64,000 nt of DNA. Origin: Haloarchaeobius amylolyticus. GTDB lineage: Archaea; Halobacteriota; Halobacteria; Halobacteriales; Natrialbaceae. Where the stretch lies: positions 558,001 to 622,000 of the forward strand of contig NZ_JANHDH010000001.1 in the NCBI RefSeq assembly GCF_026616195.1, written 5' to 3'. The position numbers were made by a program, and so were the translations under genes. Shown one piece after another: positions 8,222-61,846 of this stretch. Positions within the stretch are counted from its first letter, which is position 1; each line of letters opens with the position of its first letter. Below the pieces are notes generated by a model. It was not told where the DNA came from and did no database searches. It saw only the letters and a list, made by a program, of their open reading frames with translations.

Positions 8222-8548
8222 CTACCCTTTCTTGAAGCCGACGAGGAAGCCGCCGGTGAAGCCCGCGCCGACCGAGAGCGTCGAGAGGATGGGCTCGATC
8301 CAGCCGGCCTGGATGTCCTGGGTGTTCTGGGCGGCCCCGAGGATGCCCCCGGACAGCTCGTCCCACTTGACGGTGATGTAGCCCTTCGATTCGAGGAACT
8401 TGAACAGTGCCAGCTCCAGCCCGACCAGGACCGCGATGATCTTGGCTATCTTCTTCGCAGCGAATCCGATGATGCCACCGATGACGGCACCCGAACCGAA
8501 CTCGAGGCCGAGTTGTTGCGGATTCAGCTCCAGCGGAATCATACACAT
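8222..8548 (-). CDS. FUN14 family membrane protein
   Basis: 108 residues if translation starts at the ATG at 8548; a start two codons later is equally possible. The sequence LELNPQQLGLEFGSGAVIGG followed by IIGFAAKKIAKI matches the FUN14 family, with glycine-rich helix packing motifs, and the C-terminus ends in GAGFTGGFLVGFKKG. Eukaryotic FUNDC1 is a mitophagy receptor; prokaryotic members are small membrane proteins of unknown function. Two to three membrane segments are predicted by eye. Confidence 0.75.
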   Translation of the reverse strand: MCMIPLELNPQQLGLEFGSGAVIGGIIGFAAKKIAKIIAVLVGLELALFKFLESKGYITVKWDELSGGILGAAQNTQDIQAGWIEPILSTLSVGAGFTGGFLVGFKKG

Positions 8549-8725
8549 AGAGGTATGCCGCTTTCTGATAAGTCTTTTGGGGCGTTCTACCGCCGTCACC
8601 GCCACCGTCCCCGACTGGCCCGCCCCCTCGCCAGCAAACATATCACGAAGATGGAACGCGCAACAAGAGATTCAAGAGGACGGGGCGGCAATGTGCGAGT
8701 ATGACAGCACGACGACCAACAGAGG

Positions 8726-8789
8726 TGCAGGCCCGGCGAGGCTGAGACCGCCCGCCGGCCGGGATGGCGCCCGGTCGGAGCGACCTGCA
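8726..8789 (+). ncRNA. Candidate structured RNA or leader upstream of hflX
   Basis: Between the divergent FUN14 and hflX genes the sequence can fold into a closed three-way junction. P1 is TGCAGG (8726-8731) with CCTGCA (8784-8789), P2 is CCGGCG (8733-8738) with CGCCGG (8753-8758), and P3 is CCGGG (8759-8763) with CCCGG (8770-8774). The helices abut almost without gaps. GC-rich sequence folds easily, so this is only a candidate. It could be part of the hflX 5' leader or an independent RNA. Confidence 0.25.
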
Positions 8790-8826
8790 GCCGGAGATAC
8801 AGTAGTCACAACGCCGGATACGTCTC

Positions 8827-10119
8827 ATGAAGGCACTCATCGCGAAACGCGTCGATTCAGGTACCGCCGACGTCACGGAGATCCGAGAACTCGCACGAGC
8901 CGCCGGCTACGAGGTAGTCGGTGAACTGACACAGTCCCGGAAGGCCGACCCCGGCCTGCAGTTCGGAGAGGGGAAGGCGGACGAACTCGCCGAGTGCGCC
9001 CACCGCGAGGACGCCGCGGTCGTCATCTTCGACAACCGCCTCGGCCCCTACCAGACGTACAACCTGGGCCAGAAGCTCCCCGAGGGCTGTGAGGTGATGG
9101 ACCGCTTCACGCTCATCCTGGAGATATTCGGCCAGCGTGCCCAGACCCGGAAGGCACAGCTCCAGGTCGAACTCGCCGAACTCAGGTACGAACTCCCGCG
9201 CGCCGAGGCGAAGACCAGCCTCGCCAAGCGCGACGAGCACCCCGGCTTCATGGGCCTGGGTGAGTACGACGAGAGCCGCGAGCAGGACATCAAAGACCAG
9301 ATCAGCCGCATCCGGGACGAGCTGAAACGCATCGAGCAGACCGAGGAGAAGCGCCGCGAGCGCCGCCACGAGGCCGGCTTCGACCTCGTCGCCCTCGCCG
9401 GCTACACCAACGCCGGCAAGTCGACGCTGATGCGCCAGATGGCGGCCGACCTCGACGTGGACGAGAACGAGGACCTCCACCCGGACCTCGACGCGACCGC
9501 CGAGTCCGAGGACCGGCTGTTCACCACGCTCGGGACGACCACCCGCCGGATGGACCTCGACACCCGCGACGTGTTGCTGACCGACACGGTCGGGTTCATC
9601 TCGGACCTGCCCCACTGGCTGGTCGAGTCGTTCAAGTCCACGCTGGATTCGGTGTACCGCGCCGACCTCGTCCTCCTCGTCGTGGACGTCTCCGAGCCCA
9701 TCGAGGAGATCCGCGAGAAGCTCGTCACCAGCCACGACACGCTGTACGAGCGCAACGAGGCACCCATCGTCACGGTGCTGAACAAGATCGACTCGGTCGA
9801 CGACGAGGAACTCGCGGAGAAGCGCGAGGCGCTCTCCGCGCTCGCGCCGAACCCGGTTGCCGTCTCCGGCCAGGAGGCCCTCAACGTCGACCAGCTGCGC
9901 GAGCGCATCGTCGACGAGCTCCCGGACTGGGAGCGCGAGCGCCTCGTCCTCCCGATGACCGACGACACGATGAGCGTCGTCTCGTGGATCCACGACAACG
10001 CGAACGTCGAGGAGGTGAACTACGGCGACGACGACGTGCTCGTCGACTTCGAGGCACGGCCCGCCGTGGTCGAGAAGGCGCGCTCGCGGGCGGCAGACCT
10101 CTCGACGCCGTTACAGTAG
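8827..10119 (+). CDS. hflX: GTPase HflX
   Basis: 430 residues. The N-terminal HflX domain contains GLQFGEGKADELAE and DNRLGPYQTYNLGQKL, followed by a coiled-coil linker (ISRIRDELKRIEQTEEKRRE). The G domain has Walker A GYTNAGKST at about residue 192, the G3 motif DTVGFI and the NKID G4 motif. HflX binds the large ribosomal subunit and splits or rescues stalled ribosomes under stress. An insertion rich in acidic residues after the G1 region (DVDENEDLHPDLDATAES) is typical of haloarchaeal versions. The 3' end overlaps the convergent TrkA gene by 9 nt. Confidence 0.94.
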   Translation: MKALIAKRVDSGTADVTEIRELARAAGYEVVGELTQSRKADPGLQFGEGKADELAECAHREDAAVVIFDNRLGPYQTYNLGQKLPEGCEVMDRFTLILEIFGQRAQTRKAQLQVELAELRYELPRAEAKTSLAKRDEHPGFMGLGEYDESREQDIKDQISRIRDELKRIEQTEEKRRERRHEAGFDLVALAGYTNAGKSTLMRQMAADLDVDENEDLHPDLDATAESEDRLFTTLGTTTRRMDLDTRDVLLTDTVGFISDLPHWLVESFKSTLDSVYRADLVLLVVDVSEPIEEIREKLVTSHDTLYERNEAPIVTVLNKIDSVDDEELAEKREALSALAPNPVAVSGQEALNVDQLRERIVDELPDWERERLVLPMTDDTMSVVSWIHDNANVEEVNYGDDDVLVDFEARPAVVEKARSRAADLSTPLQ

Positions 10120-10809
10120 GCCCGCGTGGCCCGTCGCGATCTGATCTTCTGCCCCGAACGTCTCCAGTACGTCGTCGGCGAAGCCACGCTCCGAGAACAC
10201 GGCCACGGAGTCTCCCGCCCGGATGGTCGTCCCGCCCTTCGGCGTGACGACGCCGCCATCACGCTCGATGGCGACGACCAGCACGTCGGGGGCGAGCAGC
10301 CCGGACTCGTCGGCCTCCGAGAGCCGACGGCCGGCGATGGGGGCCTCCTCGTCCACTCGCACCTCGAACACCTCGGCGTCGTCCGCGAGGTGCATCCAGT
10401 CCGAGACCGAGGGGCGCTGGACGGCCCGGAAGAGGTGCTCCGAGATGAGCTTCTGGGGGTTCTCGACCACGTTCGCGCCGGACCGCCGGAACAGTGACAT
10501 GTGGTCCGTGTTGTGGACGACCGAGACACGCGAGGGGACGTCGTACTCCTCGGCGAGCAGCATCACCATGATGTTGGTGGCGTCGGACTCCGCCGTGGAG
10601 ATGATGGCGTCGGCCCGGCGTGCCCCCGCCTCTTCGAGCGTGTCTGCCTCGGTCGCGTCGTCGTTGATGGCGAGGCAGTCGAACTCGCGGGCGACCTCGG
10701 ACGCGGTCTGCTCGTCGGCGTCCACGACGACGACCTCGTGGCCGGCGCCTGTCGCCATGTCGACGAGCGGCCAGCCGATGTCGCCCGCACCCACGACGAT
10801 GACGTACAT
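10111..10809 (-). CDS. trkA: TrkA-type potassium uptake regulatory protein (RCK_N + RCK_C)
   Basis: 232 residues. The N-terminal RCK_N domain has the NAD-binding motif VGAGDIGWPLVDMA and the acidic strand end VVVDAD. The C-terminal RCK_C domain (about residues 140-220) includes APIAGRRLSEAD and VLVVAIERDGGVVTPKG. Such proteins gate Trk/Ktr K+ transporters in response to nucleotides. No transporter gene is adjacent. It is the second gene of an operon: its ATG overlaps the TGA of the UspA gene by one base. Its RCK_C domain closely resembles that of the divergent Lrp-type regulator. Confidence 0.9.
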   Translation of the reverse strand: MYVIVVGAGDIGWPLVDMATGAGHEVVVVDADEQTASEVAREFDCLAINDDATEADTLEEAGARRADAIISTAESDATNIMVMLLAEEYDVPSRVSVVHNTDHMSLFRRSGANVVENPQKLISEHLFRAVQRPSVSDWMHLADDAEVFEVRVDEEAPIAGRRLSEADESGLLAPDVLVVAIERDGGVVTPKGGTTIRAGDSVAVFSERGFADDVLETFGAEDQIATGHAGLL

Positions 10810-11585
10810 CAGTGGTCACCCCGGAGGCTGTCGTCGGCCGCCCAGACGGTCAGCGTGAGCGTGTCCGACTCCTCGCGGAGCCGCCGGCTGGTCGACCCGA
10901 ACGCGAGCTGGCGGAGGTGGTCGTGACTCGGCCCCCCGATGACCAGGGCGTCCGCGTCCGATGCGGCATCGGAGAGCGCCTCGTGGACCGTCCCCGACAG
11001 CAGCCGGGTCTCGAGGGGGACGTCGTCCACGCAGGCCGCCGCCGCGTCGAGGAGGCCGTCCTCGTCGCCGACGTGGGCCAGTTCCGCGTCCGCCGCTGCG
11101 ATGTGCGCGAGCGCGCCGACGGTCTCGGCGACGCTTCCTCCGTAGGGGCCGGTCCCGACCGCGCCGAGGACCGTCTCGACGCGGTCGAGTCGCCAGTCGT
11201 TCGGGGCGAGGACGACGGTCGCGCCGGTGGCCTCGAACACGCTCTCGGCGACCGCGGCGCCGAGGTCGTCGGACACCACGACGATGCCGGGTTCCTCGGC
11301 CGTCGCCGTCGTCTCCAGCGCGTCGGCAGGCGTCTCGGCCTCGACGGTGTGCCACTCGACGGTCACCGAGTCGTCGACGAGCTCCCGGACGTGCAGTGCA
11401 GTCGAGGCCGTGTGCCTGGCTGTCTCGGCCGGGAACGTCTCCTGCTGGTCGGCCGCGACGACCTCGATGGTCGGCTCGAACCCTGGTGGGAGTCCGTCGC
11501 CGGCCAGTTCGACGGCGAGTTCGACGATTCCGTCGGCGATCTTCCCATCGGTTCTGACGACCAGTGCGTGGTGTGCGTTGGACAT
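10809..11585 (-). CDS. Universal stress protein (UspA)-family protein
   Basis: 258 residues from the ATG at 11585; an in-frame start at 11648 would add 21 residues. The C-terminal half has the UspA nucleotide-binding pattern in VIGGPSHDHLRQLAFGSTS (G-x2-G-x9-GST-like), and the N-terminal half (MSNAHHALVVRTDGKIADG) is a more divergent Usp-like unit, so this is a tandem Usp protein. Usp proteins are ATP- or AMP-binding stress modulators that sometimes control transporters. Coupling by a one-base stop/start overlap to TrkA suggests a role in ion transport control. Confidence 0.82.
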   Translation of the reverse strand: MSNAHHALVVRTDGKIADGIVELAVELAGDGLPPGFEPTIEVVAADQQETFPAETARHTASTALHVRELVDDSVTVEWHTVEAETPADALETTATAEEPGIVVVSDDLGAAVAESVFEATGATVVLAPNDWRLDRVETVLGAVGTGPYGGSVAETVGALAHIAAADAELAHVGDEDGLLDAAAACVDDVPLETRLLSGTVHEALSDAASDADALVIGGPSHDHLRQLAFGSTSRRLREESDTLTLTVWAADDSLRGDH

Positions 11586-11664
11586 GGTTCTCTCCCGAAC
11601 GACGGTCGTTCGGCGTTGCTGTCCGTGTCCGAACCGCCCCTCGAACATAAACGCACCGATTAAA

Positions 11665-11679
11665 TTACTGATTCAGTAA
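11665..11679. promoter_or_regulatory. Palindromic operator candidate between uspA-trkA and the Lrp regulator
   Basis: TTACTGATTCAGTAA is a perfect inverted repeat (TTACTGA / TCAGTAA, 1 nt spacer). A third half-site, CAGTAA, is at 11704-11709. The palindrome is embedded in the only AT-rich stretch of this 174 bp divergent intergenic region and abuts an ATATATTT element (11677-11686 on the minus strand) that could be the uspA TATA box. Lrp/AsnC regulators bind such palindromes and often autoregulate, so the adjacent regulator is the likely ligand; this is inference. Confidence 0.45.
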
Positions 11680-11759
11680 ATATATTGCTCTATATTTCGC
11701 ATCCAGTAATCTCGTCGCGGGCAGGAAGATTGTAGGTCGTCGCGCCCACCAGCCAGTGT

Positions 11760-12503
11760 ATGAGCGACCGCATCGACGAGATCGACCGTCGCATCATCTA
11801 CCGGCTGATGGGGGACGCCCGGAACGTCTCGGCGCCGATGATCGCCGAGGAGATGAATGTCTCGGCGGGCACCATCCGGAACCGCATCGCCCAACTGGAA
11901 GAACGCGGCGTCATCCAGGGGTACCACGCCAGCGTGGACTTCGAGCGAACCGGCGCGCCACTGACGAACCTCTTCATCTGTCGGGCACCCGTCCCGGAGC
12001 GCGAGACCATCGCGGAGAAGGCCCTCCAGGTGCCCGGGGTCGTCAACGTCCGCCAGTTGATGACCGGCGGCGCGAACCTCCACGTCGTCGCGGTCGGCGG
12101 CGACATGGCCACCGTGACGCGGATCGCCCGCGCTCTCACGGAACTTGGGGTCGAAATCGAAGACGAGCAACTGGTCCAGAAGGAGCGCACGCGGCCCTAC
12201 GAACCGTTCGGCCCCCAGGAGGACGCACGCCGGAGCGCCCTCGCGGACATGATGCAACTCGCCGGCGGCGCCGAGGTCGTGGAGGTGTCGGTCGCGGACG
12301 ACGCCCCGATCGCGGGCCTGACCCTGACCGAGGCGGCGGACGAGGGGCTCATCGGGGAGAACGTGCTCGTCGTCGCCATCGAGCGCGACGGGTCGGTCAT
12401 CACGCCGAAGGGCGACGTGACCGTCGAACCGGACGACCTCGTGACGGTGTTCTCGCGCTCGGGGGCGTCACCGGCCGTGCTGGAGACGTTCACCGGCGAG
12501 TGA
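11760..12503 (+). CDS. Lrp/AsnC-type transcriptional regulator fused to an RCK_C (TrkA-C) domain
   Basis: 247 residues. Residues 1-60 form an AsnC-type winged helix (IDRRIIYRLMGDARNVSA, then IRNRIAQLEERGVIQGY). Residues about 65-145 are an Lrp ligand-binding (RAM)-like region (VVNVRQLMTGGANLHVV). The C-terminal 80 residues are an RCK_C domain (APIAGLTLTEAADEG, VLVVAIERDGSVITPKG). RCK_C domains bind small ligands, including c-di-AMP in some bacterial K+ systems. It is divergent from uspA-trkA, whose TrkA carries a very similar RCK_C, so it probably senses the same ligand and controls that operon. Confidence 0.9.
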   Translation: MSDRIDEIDRRIIYRLMGDARNVSAPMIAEEMNVSAGTIRNRIAQLEERGVIQGYHASVDFERTGAPLTNLFICRAPVPERETIAEKALQVPGVVNVRQLMTGGANLHVVAVGGDMATVTRIARALTELGVEIEDEQLVQKERTRPYEPFGPQEDARRSALADMMQLAGGAEVVEVSVADDAPIAGLTLTEAADEGLIGENVLVVAIERDGSVITPKGDVTVEPDDLVTVFSRSGASPAVLETFTGE

Positions 12504-40431: not shown

Positions 40432-42468
40432 ATGCGGCAACGCATCACCACGCTGGTGGTCGTCGCGATGCTCGTCAGCACGGGGCTGGCGGGCACGGCG
40501 GCCGCCGGTCAGGGCACGACCGCGGCAGACGCAGCGGTACAGTTCAGCGGACAGACCTCCGGCGGCTCGACCGTCGTGGTCGACGAGGTGACCCTCCCCG
40601 AGGGTGGCTTCGTCACCATCCACGACGCGACGCTGGGTGACGGGAAGACGCTCGAGAGCGTGCGGGGGACCTCCCAGTACCTCGAACCGGGCACGCACGA
40701 GGACGTCACCGTCCACCTCGACGACACGCTCTCGTCGGACGCCACGCTGTTCGCGATGGCGCACCAGGACACGAACGACGACCGGACCTACTCCTTCGTC
40801 GCGTCGAGTGGCTCGGTCGACGGGCCGTACACGGCCGGCGGTGACATCGTGATGCAGTCCGCCGACGTGGCGGTCTCCGCGACCGTCTCGATGGCCGACG
40901 GCCCGGTCGCGAACGACACCGTCGTCGTCGACCGCGTCGAGTTGAGCGAGGGCGGCTTCGTGACGGTCCACGACGCGACCGTGACCGAGGGCGCCGTCTT
41001 CGAGAGCATCCGCGGGACCTCCCAGTACCTGAGCGCAGGCGTGCACGAGAACGTGCGCATCACGCTGGAGCAGCCCCTGACGGAGAACACGACGCTGGTC
41101 CCGATGGCGCACAGGGACACCGACGGTGACCAGACGTACACCTTCGACACGTCCGAGGGTGAGGCCGACGGGCCCTACACCGCCGACGGGAGCGCGGTCG
41201 TCGACACGGCCGCGGTGACGCTCGCCGACGAGGCGACCGCGACGTTCGACGCGCAGGCCGCCGGCGGCCACCGCGTCGTCGTCGACTCGGTCTTCCTGCC
41301 CGAGGGCGGCTTCGTGACGATGCACGACGCGAGCCTGCAGGACGGCGCGGTCTTCGACAGCGTCCGTGGCACCTCGCAGTACCTCGCCCCGGGCTACCAC
41401 GAGGACGTCGCGGTCGTCCTCGACGAGCCGATGACCGAGGACGGCTCCCTCATCGCGATGCCGCACATGGACACCGACGGTGACCAGGCCTACGACTTCG
41501 TCGAGAGCGAAGGCGGCGACGACGGCCCCTACACCGCCGACGGTGGCGCCGTGGTCGACGCGGGCAACGTCACCATCTCCGCGAGCGTCTCGATGGCCGA
41601 CCAGCCCTCCGACGGGCACACGGTCGTCGTGCAGGACGTCGACCTCTCCGAGGGCGGTTTCGTGACGGTCCACGACAGCTCGCTGTTCGCGGGGGCGACC
41701 TTCGACAGCGTGGTCGGCACCTCCGCGTACCTCGAGGCCGGCCACCACGAGAACGTGACCGTCACGCTCGACAGCCCGATCCGGTCCACGCAGACGCTGG
41801 TCCCGATGGCGCACCAGGACACGAACGACGACCAGACGTACTCCTTCGTCGAGGACGAGGGCGGCGCTGATGGGCCCTACACCGCAGACGGCGGTGCCGT
41901 GGTCGACACGGCCCGCGCCTCGGTCCAGGCGACCGTGACGTTCCAGGCACAGGAGACGATGGGTGAGACGGTCGTGGTCGACTCGGTGACGCTCCACGAC
42001 GGCGGCTTCGTCACCATCCACGACGCGAGCCTGCAGGACGGCGCGGTCTTCGACAGCGTCCGCGGCACCTCCGCGTACCTCGCACCGGGCACGCACGAGA
42101 ACGTGACGGTCACGCTCGACCAGCCGGTCGAGGAGGACTCCACGCTCATCGCGATGCCCCACCGCGACACGAACGACGACCAGACGTACGCCTTCGTCGA
42201 GAGCGAGGGCGGTGCTGACGGCCCCTACGTCGCGAACGGTGCGGTCGTCTCCGGCGCGTCCGTGACCTACACGGGCGAGTCGATGACGGAGACGACGATG
42301 ACGACGACCATGGACGAGGGAACCACCATGGGCGAGGGGACCACGATGATGGACGACGGCACGGGTGACGACGCCGACAGCGGCGGCTCGCCCGGCTTCG
42401 GCATCGTCGCGGTCGCGCTCGCACTGGTTGGCACGCTGGCATTCGGTATCCGGCGCGCCGGTCGCTGA
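40432..42468 (+). CDS. Surface protein with five DUF7282-like repeats and PGF-CTERM sorting tail
   Basis: 678 residues. A Sec-type signal peptide (MRQRITTLVVVAMLVSTGLA) precedes five tandem repeats with a 116-118 residue period, each with EGGFVT(I/V/M)HDA, a (R)GTS.YL block, and an acidic HxDTN/DxD.TY segment. A Thr/Met-rich linker (ETTMTTTMDEGTT) precedes the C-terminal GGSPGFGIVAVALALVGTLAF and basic tail, a PGF-CTERM archaeosortase signal, so it is predicted to be processed and lipid-anchored at the cell surface. No enzyme motif is seen; adhesion or matrix function is a guess. Confidence 0.85.
   Translation: MRQRITTLVVVAMLVSTGLAGTAAAGQGTTAADAAVQFSGQTSGGSTVVVDEVTLPEGGFVTIHDATLGDGKTLESVRGTSQYLEPGTHEDVTVHLDDTLSSDATLFAMAHQDTNDDRTYSFVASSGSVDGPYTAGGDIVMQSADVAVSATVSMADGPVANDTVVVDRVELSEGGFVTVHDATVTEGAVFESIRGTSQYLSAGVHENVRITLEQPLTENTTLVPMAHRDTDGDQTYTFDTSEGEADGPYTADGSAVVDTAAVTLADEATATFDAQAAGGHRVVVDSVFLPEGGFVTMHDASLQDGAVFDSVRGTSQYLAPGYHEDVAVVLDEPMTEDGSLIAMPHMDTDGDQAYDFVESEGGDDGPYTADGGAVVDAGNVTISASVSMADQPSDGHTVVVQDVDLSEGGFVTVHDSSLFAGATFDSVVGTSAYLEAGHHENVTVTLDSPIRSTQTLVPMAHQDTNDDQTYSFVEDEGGADGPYTADGGAVVDTARASVQATVTFQAQETMGETVVVDSVTLHDGGFVTIHDASLQDGAVFDSVRGTSAYLAPGTHENVTVTLDQPVEEDSTLIAMPHRDTNDDQTYAFVESEGGADGPYVANGAVVSGASVTYTGESMTETTMTTTMDEGTTMGEGTTMMDDGTGDDADSGGSPGFGIVAVALALVGTLAFGIRRAGR
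40570..42233 (+). repeat. Five tandem 116-118-codon repeats in a surface protein gene
   Basis: Equivalent positions (the VVVD strand) begin at 40570, 40918, 41272, 41620 and 41968, giving periods of 348, 354, 348 and 348 nt. Units 3 and 5 share a near-identical DNA stretch encoding HDASLQDGAVFDSVRGTS, suggesting recent copying between units. Confidence 0.85.
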
Positions 42469-56944: not shown

Positions 56945-57940
56945 TCAGTCCCGTCGTCGCCAGACCAGCGCCCCGGCGACGAGGGCGACTACGGTCGCGA
57001 TACCGGTGAAGCCGGGAACCGCGCTCTGGGAGTCGCCGCCAGCGCCACCGGTCTCCGCGGTGGGGCCCGTGGCGGTCGCCGACGACTGGCCGGTCGTGGC
57101 ACCCGTCGTCGTGGGTTCGGGCGTGTTGATGAGCGGTTGCGTGGTCGCCTGCGCGTTCTGGACCTTCTTGACGTCGAACCGGGAGCTGACCGTCTCCTCG
57201 CCGACGCGGATGGGCTGGTCCCCGTCGACAGTGAACTCGCCGTCACCGTCGGCCGCGTGGAGGATGGCCTCGAGTTCCGCGGTCTCGCCGGTCGCGAGCG
57301 AGCCGAAGAACGACTCCGAGACGGCCACGCTCACGTTGTCGTGCGAGCCCGCATCGAGGCGCTTCGTGCCGACGACCTCGCCGGTCGTGCCGTCGTCGGT
57401 GACGTTCCGGAGGGCGACGTAGCCGGGCCGGTCGAGGTCGACGCCACGGACCGTCACGGCGGCGCTGTCGACGCGCTGGGTGGTGAACCCGCCGGTGACG
57501 ACCCGGACCGCGCCGTCGGCGCTCTTGCCGACGGTGACCTGCTGGCCGGCGTACTGGCCGGCGATGCCCTGGATGGGCGTGTCGCTGCCGGGCTCGAACT
57601 CGCCGTCGCCGTCGTCGCGGTGCAGGACGAGCCAGTACGTGCGGGTGCCGTTCTGGTCGGCCCAGTACTCGTCGTCGACGGCGACCTCGAAGTCCGAGTG
57701 GAAGCCCTGCGAGACGCTGGCGTGGCCGAGTGGCGGGCCGATGGACCCGTCGCGGTCCTGGTGGACGACGAGGTGACCGGGGTTGGTCATGAACATCGAT
57801 TCGACGACGATGGTGCCGTCGCTGGAGACCTGCGCGTCGACGCTCAGGTGGTTCCCGTGGGCGGCCGCCGGCGTCACGACGGCCGTGACCGCTGCGGCGA
57901 CCACCACCAGACCGAGGAGGAGGGCGAGGGGGCGGCGCAT
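56945..57940 (-). CDS. Surface protein with DUF7282-like domains and PGF-CTERM tail
   Basis: 331 residues from the ATG at 57940. A Sec signal peptide (LALLLGLVVVAAAVTAVV) is followed by two DUF7282-like units (about 35-140 and 140-250) related to those of the protein at 40432, a Thr/Ala-rich linker (TPEPTTTGATTGQSSATA) and a C-terminal VPGFTGIATVVALVAGALVW with a basic end, the PGF-CTERM sorting signal. It should be anchored at the cell surface after archaeosortase processing. It is the last gene of the envelope cluster, 37 nt after the lipoprotein gene. Confidence 0.85.
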   Translation of the reverse strand: MRRPLALLLGLVVVAAAVTAVVTPAAAHGNHLSVDAQVSSDGTIVVESMFMTNPGHLVVHQDRDGSIGPPLGHASVSQGFHSDFEVAVDDEYWADQNGTRTYWLVLHRDDGDGEFEPGSDTPIQGIAGQYAGQQVTVGKSADGAVRVVTGGFTTQRVDSAAVTVRGVDLDRPGYVALRNVTDDGTTGEVVGTKRLDAGSHDNVSVAVSESFFGSLATGETAELEAILHAADGDGEFTVDGDQPIRVGEETVSSRFDVKKVQNAQATTQPLINTPEPTTTGATTGQSSATATGPTAETGGAGGDSQSAVPGFTGIATVVALVAGALVWRRRD

Positions 57941-57977
57941 GCTCGCACCTGCGGATTCCACGAAAAAAGGGTTATCG

Positions 57978-59063
57978 CTAGACGCGCAGGGTCGCGCCGT
58001 CCATCTGGAGGAACGCGCGCTCGTACCCCTCGTGTCGGGCGACCTGCGGCGGCACGGTGACGGTCAGCTGGACCTCGTCGCCCGATTCGACCACGGGCAT
58101 CGTGGCGCCGTAGTGGTAGTGGAGCTCGGGGTCGATGGCCCGGGCGAGCTTGCCCTCGTACAGTGTCTCGCCGTCCCGGGTGACGGTCGCGTCGAGGCCC
58201 ATCATCGGCAACAGCAGGTCGTTGTAGGGCGTCCGCGCGGAGACGTAGAGGTACGCCTGGTCCGAGTCGGCGAAGCGGCCGCCCACGACGGCCTTCGTGA
58301 CGAGGTCGGCGTCGTCGACCCGCTTCGTCCCGATGGTCATCCCGGGGAGGTCCTCGGGTTCCGGGGCGATGCCGATGGGCATCATCCCCATCTCCATCGG
58401 CCGGATGGCGCCCTTTTGGCCGGCGGCCTCGAGGTCCGTGACGGTCATCTTCTCCCGGACCTGCTCGTCGAACTCGAAGTCGACCTCGGCGGTCGCGGGC
58501 TCGCCGAACTTGTCCGCGAACGAGCCCATGCGCCCGATCTGGACGCCAGCGACGGACAGTCTCGCGGTGTAGCTGCCGTCGCCGGGGAGCGAGAAGTTGC
58601 CGCCGTAGTGGAATCCCATCCGCTGGGAGAGCATCGGGTAGATGACCTCCTCGCTGACGAGTTCGCCGTCCTGGAGGAGCTCGACGGAGAGGCTGGTGTC
58701 GGCGAGGACCTGCCCGCTCTCCTCGTGCCAGACCTGTGCCATCAGGTGGACGGCGTGCTCGTCGGACTTCTTCTTGGGGGAGCGCTCGGTGCCGGTGACG
58801 GTCCAGAAGTCGTGGGGGACCGCGAGCAGGAGGGCGAAGGTGTAGTCGCCCTCGGTCACTGGCCCGAACGTGGCCATGCCCTCGCGGAAGGACTGGACGT
58901 AGACGCCGGCGGGACCGTCCGGCGCGCTCGTCGTCGGCGGGCTGGTCGTCGGGGGACTGGTCGTGGTTGCCGTCTCGGTCCCGGTGGAACCGTCACCGAG
59001 ACAGCCGGCCACACCGGGGAGTGCGGCCGCGGGGAGGGCGCGGAGGAGTCGGCGGCGTCGCAT
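57978..59063 (-). CDS. Predicted lipoprotein with Tp34/P19-like metal-binding domain
   Basis: 361 residues. N-terminal MRRRRLLRALPAAALPGVAGC has a twin-arginine-like start and lipobox, then a Thr/Pro-rich spacer. The block YPMLSQRMGFHYGGNFSLPG followed by a strand resembles the Tp34/P19 family (iron or copper binding periplasmic proteins), where the pattern is PM....G.HYGAN. A methionine-rich PMEMGMMPIGI and a HYHYGATMP segment add possible metal ligands. Located between the multi-TM gene and the DUF7282 protein, which supports a metal or redox role; this is inference from motif and context. Confidence 0.75.
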   Translation of the reverse strand: MRRRRLLRALPAAALPGVAGCLGDGSTGTETATTTSPPTTSPPTTSAPDGPAGVYVQSFREGMATFGPVTEGDYTFALLLAVPHDFWTVTGTERSPKKKSDEHAVHLMAQVWHEESGQVLADTSLSVELLQDGELVSEEVIYPMLSQRMGFHYGGNFSLPGDGSYTARLSVAGVQIGRMGSFADKFGEPATAEVDFEFDEQVREKMTVTDLEAAGQKGAIRPMEMGMMPIGIAPEPEDLPGMTIGTKRVDDADLVTKAVVGGRFADSDQAYLYVSARTPYNDLLLPMMGLDATVTRDGETLYEGKLARAIDPELHYHYGATMPVVESGDEVQLTVTVPPQVARHEGYERAFLQMDGATLRV

Positions 59064-59149
59064 GGTGCGGTGTAGCGAGAAGTTGCAAAAAACCGTTGTG
59101 GTTCACGGGTCGAACTGCCGGAAGCGGGCGGGAACGGCCAGCCTGCGGG

Positions 59150-60514
59150 TCAGGCGACCGTCGTGACCACGGGGCGGGAGAACACCCACAGCGACAGCAC
59201 GGTGTACCCGAGCATCAGGACGACCATGGGGGCGTGCCCGCGTCGCGCCAGGTCGAGCGAGCCGAACACCCGGAGCGACACCGCGTGGGCGGCGAGTACG
59301 GCAGCGACGTGGCCAGCGACGACCAGCACCACCTCGGTCCCCCAGATGGCGGCCGGCGGGACGAGTGCGAGGGGCGTCGCGGCCACCGGCTGCTGGGTCG
59401 CCAGTTCGACGAACGTCAGCAGGTTCCGGAGGACGTAGGGGTAGTTGTGTGCGAGGTCGTAGCCGACCGCGATGGGCAGCAGGGTCGCGCCGAAGGCCAG
59501 CGTCGCCCGCCGGGGATTCCCGTCGCCGAGGCCGGCCGCGACCCGGACCGTGAACCAGAACAGCGCGAGGAACGCGACGAAGCCGCCGACGTAGAGCAGG
59601 AGCTTCGTGTAGACGCCGAGCCCGAGCGTCTCCAGCGTCCAGAACCGGAGTTGCTGGTACTCGGGCGTCGCCTCCAGCCCGTCGAAGCTCACGGTGTAGA
59701 CCGCCGCGACCGCGAGGGCGGCCGAACCGCGGTCCGGGAGGGCCTCGCTGCAGGCACGCCACGGCGAGGTCTGGACGACGTGGAACGCCTCGCCCGAGTC
59801 GGCCCGGCGGATCGAGAGCGGGGCGACCCGCCCCACGAGTCGGTAGAACGCGGCCAGCGGGTCGGCCTTCGCGAACCACTCGCGACCCCAGACCACGCCC
59901 CCGACCAGCATGACTGTCGCGTACAGGGCGACGGTGACCGCGGTCAGCCGGGGGCTCGTCGGCACCGCGCTGAGGTTCTCCGCGAAGCCGACGAGGACGA
60001 GGAAGCCGAAGGCCGCCGGCCAGGTCCCCAACGTGGCAGGGTACTCGCCGAGGGCGGGCTCGTCGCCCTCCAGTCGCGCGAGCAGGTCGTACAGCGTCTC
60101 CCACGGCGAGAGCGACCGCCAGGGGCTCCCGACCACTGCCGAGACGACGAGCAGGCCCTTGAACCAGACCGGCCAGACGAACACGGTCGCGAACTCCTGT
60201 GGGGTCTGGGGCCCGGTCAGGCCGGTGTAGATGGCCACGAGGAACCCGACGAGGAAGGCGGTGCGAGCCACCAGTCGGAGTCCCTCGCCGATTCCGGCGG
60301 GGACCCGGACCAGCACGTCCTCGCCCCCCACGGGTTCCGTGTCCAGCCGGCTCACGACGACCGCGGTCGCCAGGACGGCACCGCCGGCCCCCAGGAACAG
60401 CAGCATCGGGGGAATCGGCGGCGCGACCGACGTGTTCCCGTGGGCGCTGACCGGCGCGACGAGCGCCAGCGACGCGACCACCACGGCGGTCAGCAGACGG
60501 GTGAGCCGACTCAT
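59150..60514 (-). CDS. Multi-TM membrane protein resembling the fenitrothion hydrolase (FedA) family
   Basis: 454 residues from the ATG at 60514. A signal-like first segment ends near SAHGNTSVAPPIPP, then about ten hydrophobic helices follow. The C-terminal segment (VVLVVAGHVAAVLAAHAV, RRGHAPMVVLMLGYTVLSLW) is similar to bacterial membrane proteins labelled fenitrothion hydrolase, whose true role is unclear. Conserved histidines (AHG, AHN, GH, AH) could bind a metal or heme. First gene of the three-gene cluster with the Tp34-like lipoprotein and the surface protein, 86 nt upstream of the lipoprotein. Confidence 0.78.
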   Translation of the reverse strand: MSRLTRLLTAVVVASLALVAPVSAHGNTSVAPPIPPMLLFLGAGGAVLATAVVVSRLDTEPVGGEDVLVRVPAGIGEGLRLVARTAFLVGFLVAIYTGLTGPQTPQEFATVFVWPVWFKGLLVVSAVVGSPWRSLSPWETLYDLLARLEGDEPALGEYPATLGTWPAAFGFLVLVGFAENLSAVPTSPRLTAVTVALYATVMLVGGVVWGREWFAKADPLAAFYRLVGRVAPLSIRRADSGEAFHVVQTSPWRACSEALPDRGSAALAVAAVYTVSFDGLEATPEYQQLRFWTLETLGLGVYTKLLLYVGGFVAFLALFWFTVRVAAGLGDGNPRRATLAFGATLLPIAVGYDLAHNYPYVLRNLLTFVELATQQPVAATPLALVPPAAIWGTEVVLVVAGHVAAVLAAHAVSLRVFGSLDLARRGHAPMVVLMLGYTVLSLWVFSRPVVTTVA

Positions 60515-60619
60515 TGCCAGCGAGTCTGCCCGCACCCCTCAAAATCCCGTTGGTTCGCCGGTCGAATCGCGGCTGCGGACGGGCAACGTTTTTCCAGCGT
60601 GTCCCGAACCGCCAGCACG

Positions 60620-61846
60620 ATGCGCACCCGCACGCTCGTCGCCCTGCTCGTCATCGTCGCCGGCCTCGTCGGGGTCGCCTACGTCGGCCTCTCCGGCGGC
60701 CAGGGCGGCGACCTCACGGTCGCGTGGACGAGCGACACCACGGTCGCGGGCGGGAGCAACCACCACGAGCCGGCGGTCGCGGTCGTCGACGGCGAGCCAC
60801 TGGTCTTCGCGCCGGTCAGTTCGACCAACGCCTACGACAACTGCGCCCTCGTCGCGCTCGACGCCGAGACCGGGACAGAACGGTGGCGCGACCCGGTCCC
60901 CGCCGCGAACTGCACCACCCACTCGGTCGCGGACCCGTCCGTGGTCGACCACGACGGCGACGGCGCCCGGTCGGTCCTCGCGACGACGACCGAGCGAGAC
61001 CTCGTCGCCTACGACCCACTGACGGGGACGGTCGAGGACCGCTACCCGCTGTCGGCCTACGGCTACTCGAAGCCTATCGTGGCGAACGTCACCGGCGACG
61101 CCGCCCCGGAGACGCTGGTCGCGGACGTCCGGGGACTCGTCCAGGCGCGCTCGCAGGCCGGCGCGGTCGTCTGGTCGGTGAACCGCTCGACATACGTCTG
61201 GGCGACGCCCGCCGTCGCCGACCTCGACGGCGACGGCCACACCGAGGTCGCCATCGCGGGCCGGGACGGCGTCCTCGCGGCCTACGACGCCGACGGCGCG
61301 GCCGTCTGGGAGACCACAGTCGCGGACGCGGTCACCTGGATGACGACCGGCCAGCTCGATTCGGACCCGGCCCGCGAACTCGTCGTCGGCACCCAGCAGG
61401 GACAGGTCGCCGCGGTCGACGGCCGGACCGGCGAGCCGGAGTGGCAGCACGACCGGAAGCTCCTCTCGGCGGTCCACGCCGTGGGGGAGGTCGACGGCGT
61501 CCCGACCGTCTTCGCCACCGCGGGCGACGGCTCGCTGGTCGCCCTCGACGGCCGCGACGGCTCGGTCCGGTGGGAGAGCACCGTCGAGACCGAGAAGGTC
61601 ACCATGATGCCGCCGCCGGTGCTGGGCGACGTGGACGGCGACGGCACGGCCGAACTCGTGGTCGCGAGCAACGACGGCGGCGTCTCGGTCGTCGCGCCGG
61701 ACTCGGGCGACGTGCTGGCGAGCCACGGCCGCGACGTGGACGTGCTCGCGCACCCGGTGCTGGCCGACACGGACGACGACGGCCGCGAGGAGATCTACGT
61801 CATCTACACGGACGGGCGGGTGCAGCGACTGGCGTTCGAGGCGTGA
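60620..61846 (+). CDS. FG-GAP/PQQ-type beta-propeller protein
   Basis: 408 residues from the ATG at 60620. A single N-terminal hydrophobic segment (TLVALLVIVAGLVGVAYVGL) acts as signal or anchor. Repeats with VADLDGDGHTEVAIAGRDG, LGDVDGDGTAELVVASNDG and LADTDDDGREEIYVIYTDG carry calcium-binding D-x-D-G-D loops, as in FG-GAP/integrin-like propellers, mixed with PQQ-like VALDAETGTERWRDP blades. Likely extracellular and calcium-stabilised, well suited to high salt. Function unknown. Converges on another beta-propeller gene with a 21 bp gap. Confidence 0.85.
   Translation: MRTRTLVALLVIVAGLVGVAYVGLSGGQGGDLTVAWTSDTTVAGGSNHHEPAVAVVDGEPLVFAPVSSTNAYDNCALVALDAETGTERWRDPVPAANCTTHSVADPSVVDHDGDGARSVLATTTERDLVAYDPLTGTVEDRYPLSAYGYSKPIVANVTGDAAPETLVADVRGLVQARSQAGAVVWSVNRSTYVWATPAVADLDGDGHTEVAIAGRDGVLAAYDADGAAVWETTVADAVTWMTTGQLDSDPARELVVGTQQGQVAAVDGRTGEPEWQHDRKLLSAVHAVGEVDGVPTVFATAGDGSLVALDGRDGSVRWESTVETEKVTMMPPPVLGDVDGDGTAELVVASNDGGVSVVAPDSGDVLASHGRDVDVLAHPVLADTDDDGREEIYVIYTDGRVQRLAFEA

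Follow-up and report, generated by a model that had tools for sequence, protein, structure and literature searches.

In bacteria, proteins of the FetP/P19/FtrA/Tp34 type (PF10634) belong to iron systems, together with FetM/FTR1 and thioredoxins (PMC10783030, PMC6083913). For archaea, little is known about the delivery of copper to extracytoplasmic enzymes. In a survey of copper genes in Haloferax mediterranei, the importer candidates are for the most part a CopD-domain protein and transporters that are not specific, and P19 or iron transport proteins are not mentioned (PMC9240420). In the same species, an operon of SCO and thioredoxin genes is induced by up to 7.6 log2 under denitrification (PMC11218638). 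Here we analyse a locus in a stretch of 64,000 nucleotides from Haloarchaeobius amylolyticus (contig NZ_JANHDH010000001.1, positions 558,001 to 622,000; hereafter the window), where a P19-like lipoprotein, LIP, is encoded beside a membrane protein, MEM, and a secreted protein, SURF.

We suggest, with a probability of roughly two in three, that these genes belong to a haloarchaeal regulon which provides extracytoplasmic and respiratory copper enzymes with their metal. They are part of a set of envelope genes that is widespread and had not been described before, and the metal handled is most likely copper, not iron as databases say. The strongest single argument for copper is a promoter element that the set shares with the gene of SCO1/SenC. 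The features of the locus are as follows.

59150 to 60514, minus strand: MEM, membrane protein of 454 amino acids (open reading frame call)
57978 to 59063, minus strand: LIP, lipoprotein of 361 amino acids (open reading frame call)
56945 to 57940, minus strand: SURF, secreted protein of 331 amino acids (open reading frame call)
60620 to 61846, plus strand: PQQ/BamB-like beta-propeller protein, divergent from MEM (neighbourhood analysis)
60548 to 60569, minus strand: promoter element CGATTCGACCGGCGAACCAACG, 33 nucleotides (nt) before the MEM start codon (matrix/pattern scan)
59096 to 59117, minus strand: promoter element CAGTTCGACCCGTGAACCACAA, 32 nt before the LIP start codon, with one mismatch to the core

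The three minus-strand open reading frames (ORFs), with gaps of 86 nt between MEM and LIP and 37 nt between LIP and SURF, lie as the initial annotation had placed them. Its interpretation of the locus as a whole is partly supported, and its reading as an envelope system for metal or redox we judge right.

The element, TTCGA-N4-CG-N-ACCA, is located 31-34 nt before the start codon and was first spotted when intergenic regions between MEM and propeller genes were compared. A matrix was built from eight MEM/propeller sites only and then applied to other gene families, which were collected (here as in the key linkage counts below) as hidden Markov model matches on all ORFs. The threshold is passed by 1.4% of other genes (23/1677). 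Above it are 48 of 88 LIP genes (p 1e-51), 25 of 42 DUF7405 genes (p 1e-31), 12/33 for DUF7471, 7/14 for TM7 and 2/4 for SCO1. Related genomes contribute partly dependent cases to these counts (merging was restricted to identical upstream regions), and one site can serve two divergent genes. No enrichment was found before COX2, COX3 or ATPase genes (1/17 for ATPases), and the signal is lost with column-permuted matrices. Strong sites before LIP, DUF7405, MEM or SCO1 are oriented toward the gene in 89 of 96 cases, and their distance to ATG is 31-34 nt in 73 of the 84 measured. With this position, closely followed by a TATA-like stretch, the element looks like an activator-type site of leaderless promoters.

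Of seven exact copies of the 16-mer core in the window genome, three precede MEM/propeller, DUF7405 and SCO1, three lie within genes and one has no evident gene. LIP and its second copy, LIP2, carry it with one mismatch (pattern count), and the carriers in this genome are MEM, LIP, LIP2, DUF7405 and SCO1. A strong copy without an evident downstream gene lies on contig G000:C6 (L304:1007-1028). Across 59 genomes, 30 sites match the longer form TTCGANNNNCGNACCAGAA exactly, versus one for the reversed pattern. Twenty-seven of these sites precede DUF7405 (12), LIP (9), TM7 (2), SCO1 (2), f27 (1) or a DUF7410-MEM pair (1). The f27 protein (L113:10554-11558, L331) is secreted, has an AAA|H junction and, judged by eye, a ferritin-like C-terminus; its gene carries the element in some genomes.

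SCO1/SenC proteins are a family of copper chaperones. The SCO1-thioredoxin gene pair of the window genome has an exact element 32 nt upstream (G000:C2, about 1.046 Mb; L303:1898-5500), and its SCO1/SenC protein is recognized by Pfam with E 5e-18. Downstream of the pair are encoded a protein with AHS after the signal peptide and then a plastocyanin-type lipoprotein. Because the element is common to the genes of our set and to this copper-delivery gene, the former probably handle copper as well. The gene set, the candidate ligands and the element, which predicts members of the set genome-wide, are all testable in Haloferax. We also considered the H. mediterranei denitrification motif CGAAYATDKTYG as the site of the regulator. 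It is likewise semi-palindromic and found upstream of respiratory metal genes (PMC10062603, PMC11218638), but its sequence is a different one, and its distance to the gene is 66-79 nt for nirK, nor and nosZ and 319 nt for nar, versus 31-34 nt for our element; on both counts it was rejected.

LIP consists of a P19/FetP-fold domain (residues 60-204) and DUF7350 (PF24041, residues 237-359; 183 bits versus a cut-off of 27, E 2e-54), on which we found no literature. The Pfam match to PF10634 itself is borderline, with 21.3 versus a cut-off of 21, and a profile built of 33 LIP relatives matches FtrA with E 7e-7. In the AlphaFold model, residues 60-204 superimpose on FetP with VIA Z 14.5 and a root-mean-square deviation of 2.3 A over 135 residues, all P19/FtrA/Tp34 entries following FetP in the ranking. 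Foldseek likewise returns the P19 beta-sandwich (E 3e-5, prob 1.0). By its predicted structure, LIP is a true P19/FetP/FtrA-fold protein. Together with the lipobox (AGC) and the P19/Tp34 string YPMLSQRMGFHYGGN, this bears out the Tp34/P19-type lipoprotein proposed earlier. Its methionine-richness is equally real, since LIP relatives average 4.2% Met versus 1.5% in background, some of them with long Met-rich linkers.

H106, M108, M144 and H152 are invariant in 33/33 LIP sequences. When compared with ligand positions of P19/FetP, numbered as we take them to be, M144 and H152 align with Met and His of the FtrA PM...HYG motif. H106 corresponds to the His of the HxE pair, whose Glu is replaced by Met (HLM, not HLE), and the His at the further C-terminal, fourth ligand position is missing. 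The four invariant residues form a putative copper site, a combination of His/Met/Met/His that is similar to the site for Cu(I) in PCu(A)C. LIP thus shares with FetP, P19, FtrA and Tp34 the fold, the Met and His of the motif and the extracytoplasmic location, but not the Glu, the fourth His or an FTR1 partner, and it is Met-rich and has the extra DUF7350 domain. Archaeal P19-like proteins standing alone retain HLE and the later His, so the change at these positions is specific to the DUF7350 family. These stand-alone proteins (loci L220-L222, L226-L228, L232-L234, L242) have about 180 amino acids, HLE and WHPGLYHYG motifs and no signal peptide; they are possibly cytoplasmic, which is unusual for the P19 family.

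Iron is the obvious competitor. In such a scheme the locus would take up ferrous iron in the manner of FetMP or FtrABCD, with MEM in place of FTR1 and DUF7405 acting as EfeB. The P19 fold, the RefSeq name of LIP relatives ('iron transporter'), the iron function of bacterial P19 systems (PMC10783030, PMC6083913) and a DUF7405 score just above the cut-off of the DyP peroxidase C-terminal model (Dyp_perox_C, 20.1 versus 20 bits) all speak for it. There is indeed some likeness to FetMP, FtrABCD and fetMP-fetABCDEF of Campylobacter jejuni, as these also combine a P19 protein and a membrane partner with thioredoxin-like and redox genes. However, FTR1 (PF03239) was above the cut-off in 0/146 genomes of the order Halobacteriales, the window genome included, with Escherichia coli and Bacillus subtilis as positive controls. 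Because FTR1 permeases are absent, this is not a FetMP/FtrABCD system. MEM is an unrelated family with ten transmembrane (TM) helices and without Pfam or Protein Data Bank (PDB) match, the key Glu and one ligand His of LIP are lost, SCO1 is among the genes with the shared element, and MEM relatives stand beside copper enzymes in archaea and bacteria. We therefore regard iron uptake as unlikely. This suggests that many haloarchaeal 'iron transporter' proteins are possibly misnamed. As for the partnership of bacterial P19 proteins with membrane iron or copper transporters to which the initial annotation pointed, the metal here is most likely copper, and an FTR1-type partner is lacking.

The context of the genes points to copper too. 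In several genomes, LIP is next to SCO1/SenC, thioredoxin and CcdA. The immediate neighbours of MEM and LIP of Halobacterium noricense are a NosD/NosL protein and genes of an ABC transporter, with a plastocyanin not far away. On actinobacterial plasmids, MEM relatives are found in loci of copper membrane monooxygenases (M. dioxanotrophicus, M. chubuense), which makes MEM a membrane family accompanying these enzymes in actinobacteria; others are near CopC, heme-copper oxidase subunit III, TlpA and a cytochrome oxidase assembly gene. In Sulfitobacter, MEM adjoins PCu(A)C. Actinobacterial MEM relatives (including L264 and L266) often directly follow a small lipoprotein of cupredoxin-like appearance (judged by eye); only one of four such lipoproteins reaches even a weak Pfam match (E 0.033).

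MEM occurs in 103 and DUF7350 in 120 of the 146 genomes. For at least 39 of 113 MEM copies, DUF7350 lies no more than 10 kb away, in many cases directly adjacent, and in same-strand or convergent orientation. By our estimate, about one copy would be expected by chance, given about two DUF7350 genes per 3.5-Mb genome. The conserved neighbourhood comprises LIP, MEM, the propeller, DUF7405, DUF7471, a helix-turn-helix (HTH) protein of HVO_0163 type and another TM protein. Constant partners of MEM are the divergent PQQ-like propeller, DUF7405, DUF7471 and the HVO_0163-type regulator. The window itself contains no DUF7405. In the window genome this gene adjoins the second DUF7350 copy, in a second set LIP2-DUF7405-HTH-DUF7471 near C1:2.28 Mb (G000:C1:2274000-2291000, about 8300-11800 therein). 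A literature search for DUF7405, DUF7471, DUF7282, DUF7410 and HVO_0163 gave just a passing mention of HVO_0163.

The AlphaFold model of MEM (predicted local distance difference test 93.3) has ten long helices after a signal-peptide-like segment. Together with positive-inside reading, this predicts ten TM helices with both ends outside. The label 'fenitrothion hydrolase', given to MEM in the initial annotation, was not confirmed, since no Pfam or NCBIfam model matched and RefSeq has 'hypothetical protein'; a literature search for FedA gave unrelated papers only and no characterised reference sequence. Sixty-eight MEM members compared with Pfam at a lax cut-off gave scattered matches only, with no heme motif or family. 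CopD was not matched in them at E up to 10, a search in which weak similarities are removed by the HMMER filters. In structure searches of the PDB with Foldseek and VIA, the top results (best E 0.14, best Z 5.8) were not convincing, which is not proof of a new fold.

Five residues of MEM, E179, H356, H402, H410 and M434, are kept nearly throughout, bacteria included. In the model, H356, H402 and M434 are near the middle of three consecutive predicted helices. The signal peptide ends at VSA|H25, so H25 directly follows the AxA cleavage motif, and this N-terminal His of the mature protein would face outward, as would Glu179. A tree of 83 sequences (FastTree) has three archaeal clades, A (with MEM of the window), B and C. 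The N-terminal His is present in 31/31 members of clade A, 31/31 of clade C and 4/4 bacterial proteins, versus 6/284 secreted background proteins by a crude rule. Within 6 kb of clade A genes, the propeller is the commonest neighbour (24/32), followed by LIP (18/32), DUF7405 (15/32), and DUF7471 and HTH (14/32). Clade B has LIP (15/16) and DUF7410 (11/16) within the same distance. Clade C has DUF7410 (27/31) and COX3 (16/31); it is linked to COX2/COX3 and found in cytochrome oxidase gene clusters.

We infer copper binding, membrane passage, its direction and the order of hand-over as follows. LIP, anchored in the membrane, would capture Cu(I) outside the cell at a site retuned from the P19 set His/Glu/Met/His/His to His/Met/Met/His, suited to Cu(I). 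It could hand the metal to MEM at the face formed by the N-terminal His and Glu179. From there copper might move over the intramembrane His/Met residues of MEM, either crossing the membrane or staying within it; MEM may import copper or serve enzyme assembly within the membrane. DUF7405, DUF7471, the propeller, SCO1 and thioredoxin would handle its redox state and insertion, the redox partners and SCO1 placing copper into oxidases and related enzymes. The site of the regulator is presumably TTCGA-N4-CG-N-ACCA, immediately before leaderless promoters. Genomic context, the N-terminal His of MEM, the His/Met ligands of LIP and the promoter element common with SCO1 make these genes similar to copper supply by SCO1/SenC, PCu(A)C and CopC/CopD. 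Nevertheless, LIP has the P19 and not the PCu(A)C fold, and MEM matches no CopD model. A bolder and tentative proposal, which we hold with less than even confidence, is that MEM represents a new class of membrane copper transporters, with an N-terminal His, an intramembrane His/His/Met path and no known fold. This class would extend over haloarchaea, actinobacteria and proteobacteria; in the haloarchaea, a P19 lipoprotein retuned to Cu(I) would feed it, and the newly recognised element would place it under common control with SCO1.

MEM could also be no transporter at all. It might be a respiratory assembly or electron-transfer factor, whose intramembrane His pair binds heme or copper and which metallates oxidases, with LIP as a metallochaperone. 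The oxidase clusters of clade C, the mid-membrane depth of the conserved His and the linkage to SCO1-Trx-CcdA fit this idea. On the other hand, many loci of clades A and B have no oxidase genes nearby, and the lack of any heme motif or family match in MEM speaks against it. It partly coincides with our copper-supply model, the one difference being whether copper passes through the membrane; we consider it improbable.

Several observations weigh against copper supply. Firstly, P19 proteins bind both Cu and Fe, and DUF7405 shows a weak resemblance to DyP peroxidases, the type found in iron-linked EfeB. Secondly, clade B of MEM lacks the N-terminal His, and some P-type ATPases of its loci score ZntA-like (Zn/Cd-type), not CopA. 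Thirdly, rhizobial and Sulfitobacter MEM genes lie within nicotinate catabolism clusters. Heavy-metal P-type ATPases are present in 6/16 clade B loci; as copper pumps they were rejected by motif and model scores, which are best for the Zn/Cd-type, and for this reason we do not use them as copper evidence. A module for copper/silver or broad heavy-metal tolerance, without any supply role, would suit these ATPases, the Met-rich LIP and the several copies borne by plasmids, but is very improbable, as the ATPases score best as Zn/Cd-type and show no enrichment of the element before them (1/17), and the regulon members are SCO1 and DUF7350 proteins, no efflux pumps.

SURF carries two DUF7282 domains and an AAA|H signal-peptide junction. 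Its C-terminal tail resembles PGF-CTERM with scores below the cut-offs (13.7 versus 18.8 in Pfam, 21.8 versus 24.5 in NCBIfam). We found no promoter element of its own, and its transcription therefore probably starts at the LIP promoter. Only five loci have a SURF-type gene next to LIP. Of the co-occurrence expected for the three families, the linkage of MEM and LIP recurs, while the SURF-type protein is an occasional accessory and no constant partner. In one genus, a MEM-LIP pair has an oddly housekeeping location between small SecE/Spt5-like genes and an FtsZ-like gene (L130-L132). The only DUF7282-domain proteins of the window genome are both encoded in the window: SURF and a protein with five such domains (40531-42267, plus strand).

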